A DNA stretch of 40,105 nt from a virus: positions 1 to 40,105 of IMG/VR virus record IMGVR_UViG_3300028844_000953; one strand, 5' to 3'. This document shows, one piece after another, positions 3,921 to 38,669 of the stretch. The notes under the pieces were generated by a model, which worked only from the letters and a program-made list of their open reading frames with translations, did no database searches and was not told the DNA's origin. Within the stretch, counting starts at the first letter, position 1. Each line of letters starts with the position of its first letter. Both the position numbers and the translations under genes were made by a program.

Positions 3921-4571
3921 ATGAAACTCATTAGAGAAGAAATCGAAACAGTTGATTTTATCGTTGAAGAACGCAACGGTAAAAAGAATATGTTCATTGA
4001 GGGTATCTTCCTGCAGGGAGATCTCAAGAACAGAAATGGTCGTATGTATCCCATGGAGACTTTGAGAAAAGAAGTCCAGAGATACACAGAGAACCATGTT
4101 GCTGCTGGGAGGGCTCTTGGAGAACTCGGACATCCAGATGGCCCAACTGTTAATCTGGATCGCGTCAGTCACAAGATTGTTTCGCTCAAGGAAAACGGAA
4201 CCAATTTTATCGGTAAAGCAAAGATCCTTTCTACTCCGATGGGTAAAATTGCAGAGTCTCTCATCAGTGAGGGCGTTAAACTTGGTGTTTCTTCTAGAGG
4301 TATCGGATCCCTCAAACAAACAAGAGAAGGCGTAAACATCGTTGGTGATGACTTTATGCTTTCAACTGCTGCTGATATTGTAGCAGATCCCTCTGCCCCC
4401 GACGCTTTTGTTGAGGGAATTATGGAAGGAAAGAACTGGGTATGGGATGGTGGAATCTTGAGAGAGCAACAAGCTGCCAAAACATACAAACAGATCAACA
4501 CCTTGGTTGATCAAAAACAACTTGATGAGAAGAAAATTAGTCTCTTTAATGATTTTCTCAATAATCTGTAA
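3921..4571 (+). CDS. gp21: Prohead core scaffold protein and protease gp21
   Basis: This 216-residue protein is the maturation protease of the T4-type prohead, which cuts the scaffold, the major capsid protein and internal proteins after the consensus (I/L)-x-E. The N-terminal part has GIFLQGDLKNRNGRMYP, then the conserved ELGHPDGP with the likely catalytic His71, and GVKLGVSSRGIGSL with the likely nucleophile Ser124 or Ser125. The fold family is related to herpesvirus assemblin-type proteases. T4 gp21 is 212 residues, so this gene is full length. It lies directly before scaffold gp22 and capsid gp23, its substrates. Confidence 0.95.
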   Translation: MKLIREEIETVDFIVEERNGKKNMFIEGIFLQGDLKNRNGRMYPMETLRKEVQRYTENHVAAGRALGELGHPDGPTVNLDRVSHKIVSLKENGTNFIGKAKILSTPMGKIAESLISEGVKLGVSSRGIGSLKQTREGVNIVGDDFMLSTAADIVADPSAPDAFVEGIMEGKNWVWDGGILREQQAAKTYKQINTLVDQKQLDEKKISLFNDFLNNL

Positions 4572-4626: not shown

Positions 4627-5715
4627 ATGTCTCGTGGAGATTTACAAGAAATGGAGCAATCTAAAACTGCTGTGAACGCTAGTGCAAAGCCTGCCGAGGC
4701 GATGCCAAAGCTATCCAATCCTGGCGAAGGTCAGTCCCCTTCTTACGAAGATCTGGGCGGTCCAACACCCGAGAACTACAGGTCCGACGATGATTCTGCA
4801 AAGCTCAAAGAGCCTAAGATCAAAACCGTCAAGGATGTAGTTAACAAAGGAGCGAAAGCAGCGGACGCAATGGATTCATCTAAAAAGAATACATACGGCG
4901 AAGAATCAGAAGTAGACGAGGAAACTCTTGAAGAAGAGGAAACTTCTACTGATGAAATCGTTGCCGAAGAAGAAACTGTAGAAGAGTATAACGTCGAGGA
5001 AGACGTTAACGCTCTCCTCGGTGGCGAAGAACTCTCCGAAGAATTCAGAGAAAAAGCAAAGGTTATCTTTGAAGCCGCTCTTAATTCTAAAATTAAAGAA
5101 GTCCAGGAAACTCTGGAACTTCAGTATGCCGAAAAACTTGCTGAAGAAAAGGAAGGTCTTAAAGACACCCTGACCGAGAGAGTCGATGCGTATCTTGAGT
5201 ACGTCTGCGAAGAGTGGATGACCGAGAACGAACTGGCTGTTGAGGCTGGACTTAAGACTGAAATGACCGAATCATTCCTTTCTGGAATGAAGGGTCTTTT
5301 TGAAGAACATTATGTAACAATCCCTGAAGAGAAATATGATGTGCTGGAAAGCATGGTAGAAAAACTTGATGAAATGGAGACCAAGCTCAATGAGCAGATC
5401 GACAAGAACATCGGACTGAATAAGAGACTCGCTGAGTCCACTGCCGATGTTGTTCTTGATCAAGTTTCTGAAGGACTCGCGTCCACTCAGAAAGAGAAGC
5501 TCGCTTCACTTGCCGAAAGTGTTGAGTTTGAAAGTGAAGAAGAATATCGTGAAAAGCTGGAAACTCTAAAGGAGTCTTACTTCTCTAGAAACACTCCCGC
5601 CGCTAAAGCATCCGCACCTCAAACCCTTTCTGAGGGTGTAGATACGACTGATGCTCCTGTACAAGCAGGAATGGATTCATATCTGAAGGCACTGGGTGCA
5701 TTTAGAAACTCTTGA
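4627..5715 (+). CDS. gp22: Prohead core scaffolding protein gp22
   Basis: This 362-residue, very acidic and helix-rich protein is the main component of the internal scaffold on which the capsid assembles and which is degraded by gp21. Residues about 90-140 are a Glu-rich stretch, followed by a long predicted coiled coil with AALNSKIKEVQETLELQYAE, and later MVEKLDEMETKLNEQI and DVVLDQVSEGLASTQKEKL, which resemble the T4 gp22 core. T4 gp22 is 269 residues; the extra length is an N-terminal low-complexity extension. GGAG six bases before the ATG gives a good ribosome binding site. It sits between protease and capsid genes, as in T4. Confidence 0.92.
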   Translation: MSRGDLQEMEQSKTAVNASAKPAEAMPKLSNPGEGQSPSYEDLGGPTPENYRSDDDSAKLKEPKIKTVKDVVNKGAKAADAMDSSKKNTYGEESEVDEETLEEEETSTDEIVAEEETVEEYNVEEDVNALLGGEELSEEFREKAKVIFEAALNSKIKEVQETLELQYAEKLAEEKEGLKDTLTERVDAYLEYVCEEWMTENELAVEAGLKTEMTESFLSGMKGLFEEHYVTIPEEKYDVLESMVEKLDEMETKLNEQIDKNIGLNKRLAESTADVVLDQVSEGLASTQKEKLASLAESVEFESEEEYREKLETLKESYFSRNTPAAKASAPQTLSEGVDTTDAPVQAGMDSYLKALGAFRNS

Positions 5716-5761: not shown

Positions 5762-7192
5762 ATGTTCCAATCCGAGCATCTGCAGGAAAAGTGGAGTCCT
5801 CTTCTCGACTATGAGGGTCTTGATCAAATCAAAGATTCCCACAGAAGAGCTGTAACCGCTGTCCTGCTTGAGAACCAAGAAAAATTCCTCAAAGAGGAAT
5901 CAGCATTTAACACAGGTATTAACCTGATGGAAACCCCCACCAATAGCGGTAACGCTGCTGGTGCGTCTGGTGGATTTGGTGGCGCTGACAGTCAAGCGGC
6001 CGGTCCTGTTGCTGGTTTCGACCCCGTTCTGATTTCTTTGATCAGACGCGCAATGCCCAACCTGGTCGCTTATGACCTGGCTGGCGTTCAACCAATGAAC
6101 GGTCCTACTGGACTTATCTTCGCAATGCGTTCCCGCTATGAAAGTCAGAGCGGCAATGAAACCTTCTTCGATGAAGTCGATACCGCATTCTCCGGTCAGG
6201 ATGATGGTAAGAACCTGACCGCTGGTTTCTCAGACGTTAACGCTGGTCTGGGTACAACCGCACAAGGTTCGGGCACCAATCCTTCCGTCCTCAACCCTGT
6301 CGGAACCGCTACCTCTACCGCCTATGATGTCGGTCAGGGAATGGTCACTGGCGATTCTGAGAACCTGGGCAATGGCACAGGCAATCAGTTCAACCAGATG
6401 GCATTCTCTATTGAGAAAGTCACCGTAACCGCTAAATCCAGAGCTCTGAAAGCAGAGTACTCCTTGGAACTGGCACAAGACCTGAAGGCAATTCACGGTC
6501 TTAACGCTGAAGCAGAACTTGCTAATATCCTCTCTACTGAGATCCTCGCTGAGATCAACAGAGAAGTTATCAGAACGATCTACAAGATTGCTGAGCAAGG
6601 TGCTGTTTCTAACACCGCTACTGCTGGTGTATTCGACCTGGACGTTGACTCCAATGGTCGTTGGTCCGTTGAGAAGTTCAAAGGACTTCTATTCCAAATC
6701 GAGCGTGATGCTAACGCCATCGCACAAAGAACTCGTAGAGGAAAGGGCAACATGATCATGTGCTCGGCAGACGTTGCCTCCGCACTGACCATGGCAGGAA
6801 TCCTGGACTACACTCCAGCACTCAACGCTAACTTGAACGTTGATGACACCGGTAACACCTTTGCTGGTACGATTAACGGCAAGTTCCGCGTCTACATCGA
6901 CCCCTATGCTGCTAACTTGGCACCTGGTAACGCTACCGGTGGTAATCAGTATTACGTCGTTGGTTATAAAGGTTCTTCACCTTATGACGCTGGACTGTTC
7001 TACTGTCCTTACGTTCCCCTTCAGATGGTTCGCGCCGTTGGAGAGGACACCTTCCAACCTAAAATTGGTTTCAAGACGCGCTACGGCATCGTCGCAAACC
7101 CATTCGCAGAAGGAACCACTCAAGGTCTTGGACGCCTCCGCGTCAACAGCAACCGCTACTATCGTCGCGTTGCCGTCAAGAACCTCATGTGA
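5762..7192 (+). CDS. gp23: Major capsid protein gp23 (precursor)
   Basis: This 476-residue protein is the HK97-fold major capsid protein. The conserved RRAMPNLVAYDLAGVQPM is the well-known gp23 signature used in marine phage surveys, and the C-terminus FKTRYGIVANPF is also typical. The N-terminal propeptide should be removed by gp21; candidate sites of the (I/L)-x-E type are after Glu45 (FLKE) and after Glu57 (NLME). A Gly/Ala-rich linker then leads to GPVAGFDPVL at residues 81-90, a motif shared with two small proteins near the end of the window. Codons are richer in C-ending forms (ACC, GTC, AAC, CGC) than in neighbouring genes, consistent with very high expression. A terminator follows at once. 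Confidence 0.97.
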   Translation: MFQSEHLQEKWSPLLDYEGLDQIKDSHRRAVTAVLLENQEKFLKEESAFNTGINLMETPTNSGNAAGASGGFGGADSQAAGPVAGFDPVLISLIRRAMPNLVAYDLAGVQPMNGPTGLIFAMRSRYESQSGNETFFDEVDTAFSGQDDGKNLTAGFSDVNAGLGTTAQGSGTNPSVLNPVGTATSTAYDVGQGMVTGDSENLGNGTGNQFNQMAFSIEKVTVTAKSRALKAEYSLELAQDLKAIHGLNAEAELANILSTEILAEINREVIRTIYKIAEQGAVSNTATAGVFDLDVDSNGRWSVEKFKGLLFQIERDANAIAQRTRRGKGNMIMCSADVASALTMAGILDYTPALNANLNVDDTGNTFAGTINGKFRVYIDPYAANLAPGNATGGNQYYVVGYKGSSPYDAGLFYCPYVPLQMVRAVGEDTFQPKIGFKTRYGIVANPFAEGTTQGLGRLRVNSNRYYRRVAVKNLM

Positions 7193-31055: not shown

Positions 31056-32141
31056 ATGTCTTCAGCAATGCAAAACTTTATGGGAGCGTATGCCGCTGTC
31101 CATAACTCTGAGGCAAAAGAGGAGTATTACTCAGTTAGAGACGCAGTAAGTGAGATGAACACTGAAGTTCTTACTGATAATGACCTTCGTGAAATTGCTG
31201 AAGAAGTATGTGAGACTTTATTCAGTCAAGAAATGAAGTTAGAGGAAGTAGAAAATAATTTAACTGAAGTTCTTGAGGAAGGTCAGAACGTAGGTAGAAA
31301 TAGAAAGACTTCTAGAATTCTTGCGGCGTTTGTTGAAACCTTTGATCGTATTAAATCTAAAGCAAATAGACTTGAGTCGTTTGCCAAGTATAGAGAATCA
31401 AAGAAACTACGAGAAACTTGGTCTTCTAGATTCAATCAGGACAAGAGAGTTCAAAGACATCATAGTGCTCTGGTAGCAAACGAATGTGCTAATGTAAAGT
31501 CAGGTCTTCTTGAACTTTATAAGGGTAAGCACGGTCAGACTGAGAAACAGTATCAAGATAGTCGTTCTGATGCTGGCAAGATGGTCTCTGGCGACTCCAA
31601 GATGAGTGGTGCCAAGTACACCTCCGGTAGAAGAGTTAGTGATGGTGGTGCTGGTCCTCAACCCGCAGGTGGTTCTATGAAACCAAAAGCACAGGGTAGG
31701 ATGGACAGTGGATCCAGAGCAGACCTTCAATATCGTAAGGCAAACATGAAGAAGAAGTCCATGAAGGAATCATGGGCAGATGCTTATAATTCTGTTTACG
31801 AAGCAGCAAAACCTGATTATCTTGACTTTGATAAGGATAACAATAAAAAAGAGTCAATGAAGAAGGCTCTTAAGGATAAGAAGAAGCACGGTATGAAAGG
31901 TCATAAGTGCGATGATGATTGTGATGAGAAAATGGAAGAAGGATATGGCACAGGTGCTGCTATGATTCGTGGTGGTGGCAAACCTAAGAAGAAAGAAACA
32001 CAAGACCAAATTGATAAGCGTTTGATGTTGGGTAAGCACTCACCTGCTGTAAAGTATGCTAATATGAAGAAAGAAAGTGTACAGTTCTCCGAAGCAGAAC
32101 TCGCAAGAATTCAGGAGATTGTAAATAGCTGGATTGACTAA
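31056..32141 (+). CDS. Conserved late protein, highly charged, probable virion-associated
   Basis: This 361-residue protein has no named family. The N-terminal 130 residues are helical and acidic (DNDLREIAEEVCETLF, then ETFDRIKSKANRLESFAKYR). The middle is low in complexity, with Ser, Gly and Lys (VSGDSKMSGAKYTSGRR), and the C-terminal part has Lys-rich and acidic clusters, including CDDDCDEKMEE, ending with FSEAELARIQEIVNSWID. GAAG precedes the ATG. It is driven by a perfect late promoter and is coupled to the next gene (TAATG). Charged, processed-looking proteins of this type suggest an internal or scaffold-associated virion protein; this is inference. Confidence 0.65.
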   Translation: MSSAMQNFMGAYAAVHNSEAKEEYYSVRDAVSEMNTEVLTDNDLREIAEEVCETLFSQEMKLEEVENNLTEVLEEGQNVGRNRKTSRILAAFVETFDRIKSKANRLESFAKYRESKKLRETWSSRFNQDKRVQRHHSALVANECANVKSGLLELYKGKHGQTEKQYQDSRSDAGKMVSGDSKMSGAKYTSGRRVSDGGAGPQPAGGSMKPKAQGRMDSGSRADLQYRKANMKKKSMKESWADAYNSVYEAAKPDYLDFDKDNNKKESMKKALKDKKKHGMKGHKCDDDCDEKMEEGYGTGAAMIRGGGKPKKKETQDQIDKRLMLGKHSPAVKYANMKKESVQFSEAELARIQEIVNSWID

Positions 32142-33566: not shown

Positions 33567-34877
33567 ATGAAGTCGTTTTTTAATTTCTTAAAAGAAGCAA
33601 GAACATCTAATGCTTCAGATCAAGCGGAACGTCGCGGACTAACTGGCGATGGTCACGGAAATTGGTACGATAAAAACGGTAGACTTGCCGCTAAAACCAA
33701 AGGCGGCCGACTTGAACTTGTAAATCAGAAACAAAATTCTGCGAAGGAAGATGAACCAACAACAACCTCTAAATCTGAACCTGAACAAACTCAACAGCAA
33801 CCTACCTCTGCCCCAGAGGCAGATGGAGAATCATCAGAGTTTGGAAGTTTTGAAGATGGTAGTCCAAGACGAATGCCAGTACCTACGAGGGCAGATGGAT
33901 CTCCTAAAGAAGACCTTGGACCTCTGACAGTTGTATTTGGTAGGTTCAATCCACCAACTGTTGGGCATAAGAAACTACTAGATGCTGCTAGGAAGGCAGC
34001 AGGTAAAGGAAATTTCAAGATATATCCATCAAGATCGCAGGATAATAAGAAAAATCCATATGATCCTGATGAGAAGGTGGACATCATGAAGCAATCATTT
34101 CCTGATCATGCGGAAAATATTGTGAATGATCCCAATTCCAGGACTATTTTTGATGTTTTGAAGCAGGGGTATAGTGATGGACATTCAAGTGTTAAAATTG
34201 TGGTTGGTGGTGACAGGGTTAAGGAGTTTGAAAAACTCTCAGGAGATTACAATGGTAAACTCTATGATTTTTCTAGTGTGGAGACTGTATCTGCTGGAGA
34301 AAGAGATCCCGACTCTGAGGGTGTTGAAGGGATGTCGGCGTCCAAGATGAGAAAAGCGGCAGCATCTGATGATTTTGAGACATACCGAAAGGGTGTTCCT
34401 GATATTATTGATGATAAGACTGCCAAGAAAATGATGATGTCTCTTCGTAAGAAGATGCAGGTTAAAGAAGGTTGGAGTCTTTGGGAGATTGCTCCAAAGT
34501 TTGATTGGAGAAATTTAAGAGAGAACTATGTCACTGGAAAGATATTCAATATTAATCAAATAGTAGAGAATCTTAACACTGGATTGGTTGGTAAAATTGT
34601 TCGTAGAGGAACTAACTATCTTATCTGTGTCACAGAAGATAATGTCATGTTCAAATCGTGGATCAAAGACTTGAAAGAGTATACTGAAGTCAAGATGGAT
34701 AAGAAAGAAAGACTTCCTGGCAAAGCAAATACTTTGATTGGAACCAAGGGATACTTTAAGTATGCTGCTGATATGACACCTGGACATGAAGATGGTGGAC
34801 AGAACCTCCAACCAGGTGGAAAAGCGTATGATGGTAAAAGTGCTCGCTCATTCATAAATAAGTATAAGAAAAAGTAG
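33567..34877 (+). CDS. Nucleotidyltransferase-like protein with capsid-targeting N-terminus
   Basis: This 436-residue protein has three parts. Residues 1-10 (MKSFFNFLKE, followed by Ala-Arg) match the T4 capsid-targeting sequence MKTYQEFIAE of internal proteins, cut by gp21 after Glu10. Residues about 50-115 are a low-complexity Gln/Glu/Pro linker. Residues about 118-300 form a cytidylyltransferase/NMN adenylyltransferase-like domain: VVFGRFNPPTVGHKKLL with the (H/T)xGH-type site at 131-134, KIVVGGDRV, and MSASKMR (256-262) as the second nucleotide motif. The C-terminal third is a separate basic domain ending in Lys. GAGG precedes the ATG. It is probably packaged in the head and ejected with DNA; substrate unknown. 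Confidence 0.75.
   Translation: MKSFFNFLKEARTSNASDQAERRGLTGDGHGNWYDKNGRLAAKTKGGRLELVNQKQNSAKEDEPTTTSKSEPEQTQQQPTSAPEADGESSEFGSFEDGSPRRMPVPTRADGSPKEDLGPLTVVFGRFNPPTVGHKKLLDAARKAAGKGNFKIYPSRSQDNKKNPYDPDEKVDIMKQSFPDHAENIVNDPNSRTIFDVLKQGYSDGHSSVKIVVGGDRVKEFEKLSGDYNGKLYDFSSVETVSAGERDPDSEGVEGMSASKMRKAAASDDFETYRKGVPDIIDDKTAKKMMMSLRKKMQVKEGWSLWEIAPKFDWRNLRENYVTGKIFNINQIVENLNTGLVGKIVRRGTNYLICVTEDNVMFKSWIKDLKEYTEVKMDKKERLPGKANTLIGTKGYFKYAADMTPGHEDGGQNLQPGGKAYDGKSARSFINKYKKK
34853..34860 (+). promoter_or_regulatory. Late promoter box upstream of gene at 34884
   Basis: CATAAATA fits NATAAATA and lies 24 bases before the next start, at the same spacing as the box at 31025. It is within the last codons of the preceding gene. 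Confidence 0.5.
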
Positions 34878-34883
34878 AAAGTC

Positions 34884-35798
34884 ATGATTTCTGAAGAAGA
34901 TCTGGCGCAGGGTAATGCTCCTGACGAATCTAAACAACGTGTTAGGCAGATAACGAAAGCAATTCGTTATAAGGCAAGAAAGGAAGGCGGCAACCTTTTC
35001 AAAGCATTTAACGATTATATGAGTAGTGCCTCTGGTGTAACTGCGACTGATCGTGCTAGCGTCAAGCAATCCCTTGGATTGTCTGAAAGATTTTCTTCAT
35101 GGAGAGAGGAGATTCGCGAAATCGCTGACATCCCTTCATCTGAAGCAAAGAAAGACACAGAGATGTCTAAAGAAATTAAAGAGAAGAAAGTTAAAAATAA
35201 AATTATCATTAACCCTGATATGAAGGAGGCATTTGAAGAGATTGGTGCTGAAGTCCTTGATGTATATGAGTTGAGTGAAGAAGATATTCAGGAGATTGAT
35301 GAGGATGCGCCTACACAGAAAGAGGAAGCAGGTTCAACTACTGGGCAGATGGATCCCCAGCAGAAACAGCAACTCAAAAACAAAGAGCAAATGCTGAGAA
35401 AGCAGCAAATGCTTTCAAGACAGAGAATCCAAATGCAGAAACAAGGCAGACTGCCTATGGGGCATTCGGAGGGATATGCTCCTGGTGATGTTGACCAGAA
35501 GGTCGGTGCTGTAACTCCTATTCCTAAAAAAGATAGAGATGCTGCCCGTGATAGACTTCTTGCGAAGGCAAAGGCAAAGCGTGAGAAGATGAAAGAGTCT
35601 ACAGAAGATTCTCTGAGAGACCGTCGCATGGAGCGCGGTGGTGTGGATGGTAATGTTAGATATGACAGAGCACCTAAATCTGCTAACACTGCTGGTAAAA
35701 AGAAACCCTATGATGGGATGTCGGCACTTGAAAAAGTAAAGGCAAGCATCCGTGCTAAGCATGGACAGGGTGCCATTATGGATACTAAAAAGAAGTGA
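34884..35798 (+). CDS. Conserved late protein, charged and helical
   Basis: The 304-residue product is not a family I can name. It begins with MISEEDLAQGNAPDESKQR and a basic helical region, has a probable linker with RFSSWREEIREIADIPSSE, an acidic segment (ELSEEDIQEIDEDAP), a Gln/Lys-rich coiled stretch (QQKQQLKNKEQMLRKQQML) and a Lys/Arg-rich tail with KVKASIRAKHGQGAIM. IRE in the linker would fit a gp21 cleavage site. Late transcription and composition suggest a head-internal or DNA-binding virion protein, but no direct evidence is visible. One base separates it from the next gene. Confidence 0.6.
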   Translation: MISEEDLAQGNAPDESKQRVRQITKAIRYKARKEGGNLFKAFNDYMSSASGVTATDRASVKQSLGLSERFSSWREEIREIADIPSSEAKKDTEMSKEIKEKKVKNKIIINPDMKEAFEEIGAEVLDVYELSEEDIQEIDEDAPTQKEEAGSTTGQMDPQQKQQLKNKEQMLRKQQMLSRQRIQMQKQGRLPMGHSEGYAPGDVDQKVGAVTPIPKKDRDAARDRLLAKAKAKREKMKESTEDSLRDRRMERGGVDGNVRYDRAPKSANTAGKKKPYDGMSALEKVKASIRAKHGQGAIMDTKKK

Positions 35799-35799
35799 T

Positions 35800-36366
35800 A
35801 TGCCAGCAGTAAGTAAGGCACAACAAAGGTTTATGGGTATGGTCTATGCCACCAAAAAAGGTGAGATGACCAACCCATCGCCCGAAGTGAAGAAGGCAGC
35901 ATCATCCATGAATAAAAAAGATGCTAAAGATTTTGCTGGAACTAAACATAAAGGATTGCCTAATAAGGTAGAAGAGGAATCCAAAAAATGTAAGTTAGGA
36001 TACTATTATTGTTATACTGATAAAAAATGTAAACCAATTCCTAAAGGATTTAAAGTTGTAGGTCGCGCTGGAATGCTCCGTAAAGAGAATGGGCATACTG
36101 TTGATGACGACGATAATAAGAATGGCAATGGAAATGGTAATGGTAACGGTGATGGTGGCGGCATGGGTGAAGCAATTGATTATTCAGATCGCAAACTGAT
36201 GAAGCGTTATGACGATGAGAAGAAGCGTCATAAAGAACAAGATAATAGAATGAAATATGGTAAGTTTGTTGCCAAAGCAAAGGAAGCGAAGGATCGTCTG
36301 CGTCCTGGTGAAGTCAAACGTTATGATAAGAAACTAGGTAGATACGTCTCTAACAAAGAATCATGA
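35800..36366 (+). CDS. DUF3008 protein with Cys motif and Asn-Gly repeat
   Basis: This 188-residue protein carries an N-terminal DUF3008-like domain: MPAVSKAQQRFMGMVYATKK, then SPEVKKAASSMNKKDAKDF and AGTKHKGLP, matching the family closely. A short insert with three Cys (Cys64, Cys71, Cys77; CKLGYYYCYTDKKCKPIPKG) follows, then a DDDD and (Asn-Gly) repeat near residues 107-125, and a basic C-terminal domain. The ATG at 35800 gives the conserved MPA start. DUF3008 has no known function. It overlaps the next gene by 4 bases (ATGA). Confidence 0.75.
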   Translation: MPAVSKAQQRFMGMVYATKKGEMTNPSPEVKKAASSMNKKDAKDFAGTKHKGLPNKVEEESKKCKLGYYYCYTDKKCKPIPKGFKVVGRAGMLRKENGHTVDDDDNKNGNGNGNGNGDGGGMGEAIDYSDRKLMKRYDDEKKRHKEQDNRMKYGKFVAKAKEAKDRLRPGEVKRYDKKLGRYVSNKES

Positions 36367-36680
36367 GAGGAGGCAACGGGGCATATACTAATTCGGCATC
36401 TGCCTCGGGACCTTTTGCTGGTTTTGATAAGAGACTTTTTAAGGGTGATGATGATCTATTGTCGCAAGACTTTCAGACTGATGCTGAACCCGGTCAAAAT
36501 AGATACAATACTTTCTCCTCTGTATATCCAGTGATGAAAGTATCTCTTTCAAATAATATGGGAGATGGTCCATCCATTGACGCGCAGGTTGCTGCTTCAA
36601 AAGCCTTTGTAAATAAGATGGATGAATCAAGCAAGAAAAAGTTTACTGACTTTATGTTAGAGACACAATTAAAAGGTTGA
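36363..36680 (+). CDS. Small late protein with gp23-like GPxAGFD motif
   Basis: The 105-residue protein begins MRGGNGAYTNSASASGPFAG, and residues 16-25 read GPFAGFDKRL, matching gp23 residues 81-90 (GPVAGFDPVL) and the small protein at 38358 (GPTAGYDSNL). The rest has YNTFSSVYPVMKVSLS, MGDGPSIDAQVAASKAFVNK and a helical C-terminus. It is coupled to the preceding DUF3008 gene. I infer that it associates with the head or its maturation; the family is otherwise unknown. Confidence 0.6.
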   Translation: MRGGNGAYTNSASASGPFAGFDKRLFKGDDDLLSQDFQTDAEPGQNRYNTFSSVYPVMKVSLSNNMGDGPSIDAQVAASKAFVNKMDESSKKKFTDFMLETQLKG

Positions 36681-37984: not shown

Positions 37985-38377
37985 ATGAGATTTGATGAGT
38001 TGACAGAAAGGAATTTTCTATTATTTGCTATTAAACATTATGAAAATCCTCAAGCAGTAACAAAAGAAGATTTTGATAAAGACCTTAATCATTTTCGATA
38101 TATTAAGAGGTTATTGAAACGATATAGATCAAGTAATGAACTCAAACTTCATCTCTTGATCAATCATTTCATTATCCTCTATAATATCTTTGGCAATGCT
38201 GCTACTCCAATGCTCTTTTTCAAAATAGAAAGAGACCTTTGGCCATATGTAAAGACATTTGTTGTGTTTTTGGACAGACTTCCTGAGTATCCTCATACTT
38301 ACATTCATGAAATTGAAGTCGATCAGCAAATACAAAGTCAATTAGAAAGGATGACAAATGGAGAAATCAAAAATTGA
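37985..38377 (+). CDS. Conserved T4-like phage protein, unknown
   Basis: This 130-residue helical protein starts at ATG 37985, four bases after the previous stop. It shows FLLFAIKHYENPQAVTKEDF, FRYIKRLLKRYRSS, ELKLHLLINHFIILYNIFGN and an aromatic C-terminal part (WPYVKTFVVFLDRLPEYPH). The pattern occurs in many T4-like phages, but I cannot give it a name or function. It overlaps the start of the next gene by 20 bases. Confidence 0.65.
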   Translation: MRFDELTERNFLLFAIKHYENPQAVTKEDFDKDLNHFRYIKRLLKRYRSSNELKLHLLINHFIILYNIFGNAATPMLFFKIERDLWPYVKTFVVFLDRLPEYPHTYIHEIEVDQQIQSQLERMTNGEIKN

Positions 38378-38669
38378 TAAGTTTGTTGATGCTTTTCGCA
38401 CAGCAATGCATCATGAGTTTAGTGTTTCTGAGGAAGGGATGGTAGCAAATCCTCCAGGAGGATCTGGTGGATTTAGTGCGTCCTCTGACGCTAAGGGTCC
38501 AACTGCTGGTTACGATTCTAACTTGAAATTTGATGGACGTAATAAGTTTGTAAGAAAAGCAATTCAAGATTTGATGAATAGAAAGGAAAAGAGATCAGCG
38601 AGGAAGGCAAAAAAGAAAGCAACGAACTTTAATCCTTACTTCAAACCTCAAGATGGACGATCAAGTTAA
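38358..38669 (+). CDS. Small late protein with gp23-like GPxAGYD motif
   Basis: The 103-residue protein has an N-terminal helix (KIDKFVDAFRTAMHHEF), then ANPPGGSGGFSASSDAKGPT and, at residues 47-56, GPTAGYDSNL. Its Gly-rich lead-in (GGSGGFSASSDAKGP) closely resembles gp23 residues 67-81 (GASGGFGGADSQAAGP), so the similarity is longer than the decamer. The C-terminus is basic (RKEKRSARKAKKKATNFNP). I infer a capsid or scaffold link. It overlaps the next gene by 17 bases. Confidence 0.6.
   Translation: MEKSKIDKFVDAFRTAMHHEFSVSEEGMVANPPGGSGGFSASSDAKGPTAGYDSNLKFDGRNKFVRKAIQDLMNRKEKRSARKAKKKATNFNPYFKPQDGRSS

Follow-up and report, generated by a model that had tools for sequence, protein, structure and literature searches.

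The window, that is, the whole 40,105-nucleotide stretch of marine viral DNA analysed here, taken from a viral contig of 41 kb, contains a gene whose 436-residue product begins with MKSFFNFLKEAR (Table 1). The product belongs to phrog_395 (E=1e-103), a family labelled 'cytidyltransferase' that has matches in 521 phage records, mainly T4-like Synechococcus and Prochlorococcus myoviruses. PF01467, the cytidylyltransferase-like superfamily, covers residues 123-223 with 32.1 bits, above the gathering score of 21. The short leader at the N-terminus is followed by a small module, a linker, the enzyme domain and a small beta domain, the last of which occurs as a stand-alone short gene in S-RSM4/S-PM2-type phages (S-RSM4 062, S-PM2p144).

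Table 1. Features of the window, ordered by position; residue numbers refer to the product of the gene at 33567.
Feature	Position	Strand	Evidence or remark
gp21-type prohead protease, Peptidase_S77, predicted processing enzyme	3921..4571	+	E=7e-35
gp22-type scaffold, with which the leader is expected to associate in the core	4627..5715	+	E=1e-81
gp23-type major capsid protein	5762..7192	+	putative gp21 site L55-M-E57/T
Neighbour, homologue of S-SCSM1_89 (annotated virion protein)	31056..32141	+	E=1e-33
CTS-tagged nucleotidyltransferase, 436 aa, phrog_395, PF01467	33567..34877	+	translation and profile matches
Residues 1-10, MKSFFNFLKE, capsid-targeting-like leader	33567..33596	+	helix 4-11 predicted; gp21 cut predicted at E10/A11-R12
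Residues 15-52, small folded module DGHGxWYD...GxL	33609..33722	+	pLDDT 73-91, BLASTP, phrog_3561
Residues 56-116, mostly disordered linker	33732..33914	+	pLDDT largely <50
Residues 117-300, adenylyltransferase-fold domain	33915..34466	+	AlphaFold2 pLDDT ~90, VIA-align
Residues 125-134, GRFNPPTVGH, nucleotide-binding (T/H)xGH motif	33939..33968	+	G125, R126, N128, P129, G133 and H134 (near-)invariant
Residues 257-262, SASKMR, ISTxxxR-type motif	34335..34352	+	S257 and R262 invariant
Residues 332-371, small beta domain	34560..34679	+	strands in model, phrog_4808 match
Neighbour, homologue of S-SCSM1_92 (annotated virion protein)	34884..35798	+	
Neighbour, DUF3008 (PF11450), homologue of S-SCSM1_93 (annotated virion protein)	35788..36366	+	73% identity

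The prohead protease gp21, which the earlier note had located in the same window, is indeed encoded there, together with a scaffold and a major capsid protein. The major capsid proteins of S-SZBM1, S-CREM2 and S-SCSM1 contain L-x-E/A sites (LTE/A or LAE/A). Six open reading frames of the window, starting at 31056, 33567, 34884, 35788, 36986 and 38358, correspond to genes 89, 91, 92, 93, 95 and 97 of S-SCSM1, a run of annotated virion proteins, and the gene therefore sits in a virion-protein cluster. DUF3008 opens the frame at 35788-36366, and its S-SCSM1 homologue is a virion protein of 69 residues; in S-SZBM1_194 (L046:23252-25375) the N-terminus of this frame is joined to a C-terminal region that resembles a SAM-lyase-like protein. 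Two small frames (36363-36680 and 38358-38669) carry a copy of the N-arm motif of the major capsid protein, G-aromatic...GPxAG[FY]D, found there from residue 71 onward, and their relatives S-SCSM1_97 (61 residues) and S-CREM2 gp160 are virion proteins. By mimicking the capsid protein, these copies possibly provide another address to the head.

A comparison of the leader with the capsid-targeting sequence (CTS) of T4 bears out the claim that the protein starts with a sequence of this type. The T4 internal protein IpII begins with MKTYQEFIAEARVG, as retrieved with a 50-residue query that matched NC_000866 at 100%; the letters of the T4 leader were not found in the literature text. Over residues 1-12, six positions are identical (M1, K2, F7, E10, A11 and R12), and conservative replacements occupy three more (S/T3, F/Y4 and L/I8). 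The leader is located at the initiator methionine and has its own processing-type residues, L8, E10 and A11. In the T4 CTS, targeting depends on residues 4 and 7 and processing on residues 8 and 10, and an Asp at position 10 blocks cleavage with targeting kept (PMC9026906). Because chance alone would yield 0.09 loose CTS patterns among the 44 genes of the window, the match in a single window is suggestive only; a strict T4-like pattern had 0 occurrences in 2000 shuffles. The match becomes decisive because homologues conserve the leader and synonymous codons vary at its fixed positions.

A comparison of the first residues of the homologues, a check that the earlier note had proposed, revealed the CTS pattern at the start of 115 of 119 IMG/VR sequences. 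This count is slightly biased because the starts were selected with knowledge of the motif, although for nearly all of them the BLAST alignment reaches residue 1 unaided. One of the four exceptions lies on a truncated contig, and the others (L095, L098 and L134) are genuine losses or shifts in which Glu10 is lost or moved. Across the 113 motif-bearing sequences used for position counts, position 7 is always Phe, position 4 is Phe in 111 and Leu in 2, position 10 is Glu in 112 and Asp in 1, and position 11 is Ala in 96. Position 8 accepts Leu, Ile, Phe, Cys or Val, with Leu or Ile in 90 sequences and Phe in 19 where T4 has Ile or Leu, and positions 5, 6 and 9 are free to vary. At the fixed sites, F7 is encoded by TTC and TTT (57/56) and E10 by GAA and GAG (87/25). 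The conservation coincides with the functional positions 4, 7, 8 and 10 of T4; together with the gp21 gene of the window and the tagged orthologues reported in virions, it makes capsid targeting a well-supported prediction. The natural Asp10 variant, L032, reads MKSFLHFLTDAK; in T4 the same change targets yet blocks cleavage (PMC9026906).

The leader is separable from the module of about 50 residues that follows it, as judged from the architectures of homologues. The module is absent from L138-L140, in which MKSFTKFIYEA and its relatives directly precede the enzyme; L039 has lost the DGHG module and kept the leader, and S-CREM2 gp154 (MKNFSSFLTEA) and S-SZBM1_140 (MRFRQFIIEA) have a leader without the module. 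The module itself, included in a phrog_3561 match to residues 2-63, recurs near the N-termini of cyanophage virion proteins that are unrelated to this one (BLASTP E 6e-7 to 3e-3), with the S-CREM2 kinase, the S-CRM01 kinase, S-CREM2 gp12 and S-B05_2943 as partners. Homologues without the ten N-terminal residues, which the earlier note regarded as telling against its reading, were found only in other architectures: domain-only proteins in S-RSM4, P-HM2 and the jumbo phages 121Q and MIJ3, and the S-PM2 homologue, in which the enzyme domain is fused behind another protein. Since leaderless domain-only homologues exist, being packaged is not an inherent property of the enzyme.

Passages of four proteome papers report members of the family in purified cyanophage particles, namely T4-GC190 of S-SM1 (PMC3037559), ORF91 of S-SCSM1 (PMC9602691), S-SZBM1_140 with a low emPAI of 0.26 (PMC9146016) and ORF154 (gp154) of S-CREM2 (PMC10665884). 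All four orthologues bear the leader, in agreement with the packaging in the head proposed by the earlier note. According to the pertinent passage, the leaderless S-PM2 homologue is absent from the virion proteome of that phage, a shallow data set that missed several true structural proteins too (PMC3037559). The passages from the S-SCSM1 (PMC9602691) and S-CREM2 (PMC10665884) papers leave carry-over possible, and those from the four papers contain no mention of a targeting leader. The presence of the family in virions is thus already known; the novelty lies in the targeting leader and in its deployment on unrelated cargo.

We further applied one loose motif, written from the T4 rules, to the genomes of S-CREM2, S-SZBM1 and S-SCSM1, for which proteomes are published, and assigned the matches to annotated starts by hand. 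In S-CREM2, all five matches at annotated starts (gp6 SAM hydrolase, gp13, gp14 kinase, gp136 and gp154) fall among the 52 virion-detected of 219 proteins (p=6e-4), in a test that was not fully blind because the N-termini of several virion proteins had been seen before the motif was written. S-SCSM1 was scored afterwards with the motif unchanged, and two of its four motif proteins are virion-detected. S-SZBM1 alone, with one of three tagged proteins detected, gave no significant enrichment. Pooling of the three phages yields 8 of 12 motif proteins in virions (p=3e-4), and 5 of 9 (p=0.013) when the phrog_395 family is left out. The motif proteins absent from the proteomes are 191 and 192 of S-SZBM1 and 30 and 88 of S-SCSM1, the last of which looks spurious. 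S-SZBM1_191 (L046:22311-22628) and S-SCSM1_30 represent a conserved leader protein of 105 residues (MKSFKSFLSESVNISGDFNG / MKTFKQFMSESVNISGDFNG) that adjoins virion genes and was detected in neither proteome.

Leaders close to that of T4 were found on SAM-lyase-like proteins (PF23780), a large family in marine viral contigs (L174, L153 and L191). The leader is present in 64 of 80 IMG/VR homologues; among the others, 12 are complete at the start and lack it. Examples are MKTYKEFIREA, MKTFKEFIQES and MKTFQEFVVEC, compared with MKTYQEFIAEA in T4 IpII, and this similarity suggests that these proteins may be packaged anti-restriction enzymes. Virion kinases share the leader as well, and a passage on S-CRM01 reports its kinase in the virions (PMC10665884); the S-CREM2 kinase, used as a query against IMG/VR for further tagged kinases, returned no pattern match. 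S-CREM2 gp12 (L049:7704-10313), a virion protein with the annotation 'Cas9/Csn1', and its relative S-B05_2943 (L063:4983-7046) both belong to phrog_3561 and contain the leader-adjacent module and, by eye, an HNH-like stretch, with no Pfam match. The leader motif is present in 0 of 44 members of the S-B05_2943 family, which has the variant leader M-x-DVFKYLK...LLE.

The nucleotidyltransferase core recognized by the earlier note is confirmed: residues 125-134 read GRFNPPTVGH and residues 256-262 MSASKMR. Homologues of 44-94% identity preserve both catalytic motifs (G125-H134 and S257-R262), and enzymatic function is therefore under selection. Residues 117-300, modelled by AlphaFold2 with a pLDDT of about 90, retrieve NaMN adenylyltransferases as the best Foldseek matches, with the tRNA ligase TmcAL also among the matches. 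In VIA-align, residues 117-299 of the model superimpose on phosphopantetheine adenylyltransferases (PPAT) with Z up to 13.5 and on NadM/NadD with 12.5, all values lying at about 12-13.5, within 1.5 Z. The scores for NadD (TIGR00482; 18.3 bits against an equivalog cut-off of 112.45) and CoaD/PPAT (TIGR01510; 18.4 bits against 103.3) place the protein in neither family, and among solved nucleotidyltransferases the profile search matched NadM-Nudix alone (E=0.098).

From the model and the conserved motifs we read the domain as a predicted active adenylyltransferase with no single substrate fixed. Of the earlier assignment to an NMN adenylyltransferase or cytidylyltransferase kind, the adenylyltransferase-type fold stands, and the proposed comparison with NMNAT structures did find NadM and NadD, with PPAT equally close; adenylyltransferases acting on phosphopantetheine and on nicotinate/nicotinamide mononucleotide come out level. 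The name 'cytidyltransferase' is taken from Pfam, and 'NMNAT' is guesswork. Assignment of the substrate by fold or family was discarded because PPAT, NadD and NadM tie, and so was membership of CoaD, as PPAT heads the VIA-align list with rows that are tied within 1 Z. The likeliest single chemistry is the adenylylation of NMN or NaMN, which would supply NAD at the start of infection and to which we give slightly less than an even chance. A packaged enzyme that makes another product (phosphopantetheine-, CDP-type or RNA-directed) is an evenly balanced prospect that contests the chemistry and leaves packaging untouched: the fold tie (Z 12.2-13.5), the equally weak NadD and CoaD matches (18.3 and 18.4 bits) and the presence of TmcAL speak for it, and the Foldseek ranking and the NadM-Nudix match (E=0.098) speak weakly against it. 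Reconstitution of NAD by phages is known (PMC12774641), and an early supply could, hypothetically, help against NAD-depleting defences.

Taken together, the protein is very probably an enzyme that a T4-like cyanophage packages in its head as cargo; it carries a CTS leader and is probably trimmed by gp21 after E10 and injected. The first ten residues would act as a T4-type CTS: they would form a short helix and may, as in T4, dock on the gp22 prohead core through the aromatic side chains at positions 4 and 7; because of this docking the protein would be enclosed at shell closure. By the T4 precedent, and in line with the L-x-E/A sites of the cyanophage major capsid proteins, gp21 probably cuts after Glu10 and releases the enzyme inside the head, from which it would enter the host along with the DNA. 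The enzyme itself would be ATP-dependent, transferring nucleotidyl (adenylyl) groups, and belong to the NMN/NaMN/phosphopantetheine adenylyltransferase superfamily, and the same leader would also address further cargo in these phages.

It is most improbable that the enzyme acts inside infected cells and simply co-purifies with particles, with its conserved N-terminus serving as a helix that has a structural or regulatory role within the protein. The carry-over raised in the passages by the S-SCSM1 and S-CREM2 authors and the existence of leaderless domain-only homologues would suit this origin, yet the separate reports from four phages, in the passages cited, argue against it, as do the leader on unrelated proteins, its retention without the adjacent module, the match of its conserved positions to the T4 CTS, and a virion enrichment that persists without the phrog_395 family. 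We also regard it as unlikely that the leader targets the prohead and the protein remains a core or structural component, neither ejected nor enzymatically important. Its place among homologues of annotated S-SCSM1 virion proteins and the low emPAI given in the S-SZBM1 passage are compatible with such a role, against which stands the selection on catalytic motifs described above.

Packaging as cargo, the preferred reading, extends to a general proposal that we consider likely: marine T4-like phages would use one short N-terminal address, often with a small shared module, to load varied enzymes and deliver them at infection, and this cargo (nucleotidyltransferase, SAM lyase, kinases and a Cas9-like-annotated protein) would be predictable from the genome alone. 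The authors of the cyanophage virion proteomes could not tell real cargo from particle-associated enzymes, and a conserved leader offers both a mechanism and a sequence rule. Such a rule would allow the prediction of packaged effectors in very common ocean viruses, and it suggests that metabolic enzymes, and possibly anti-restriction ones, are delivered ahead of any phage gene expression.

The enzyme shares the predicted fold and the (T/H)xGH and SxxxxR motifs with NadD, NadM and CoaD, and differs from NadD and CoaD in lying far under the NCBIfam equivalog cut-offs. T4 Alt is a packaged NAD-dependent ADP-ribosyltransferase. It resembles the present protein as a packaged enzyme with an N-terminal propeptide and, hypothetically, in a tie to NAD, whereas it is cleaved at ITE-6 and again C-terminally (PMC5694885), and its domain is unrelated to this enzyme. 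The virion 'NMNAT/cytidylyltransferase' of cyanophages (S-SCSM1 ORF91 and S-SM1 T4-GC190) has the same family, leader and a related module and is virion-detected; the passages on these proteins leave the packaging route open and mention no targeting leader. No open paper linking a capsid-targeting sequence to cyanophages was found, the sole co-mention being a T4 review. A close parallel is with T4 IpI, IpII and IpIII, which share the ten-residue N-terminal leader (Met-Lys, an aromatic residue at 4, Phe7, Ile/Leu8 and Glu10/Ala) and the presence of gp21 and gp22. The T4 internal proteins are small basic defence proteins, whereas the present cargo, an enzyme of 436 residues, has several domains and an additional folded module behind its leader.
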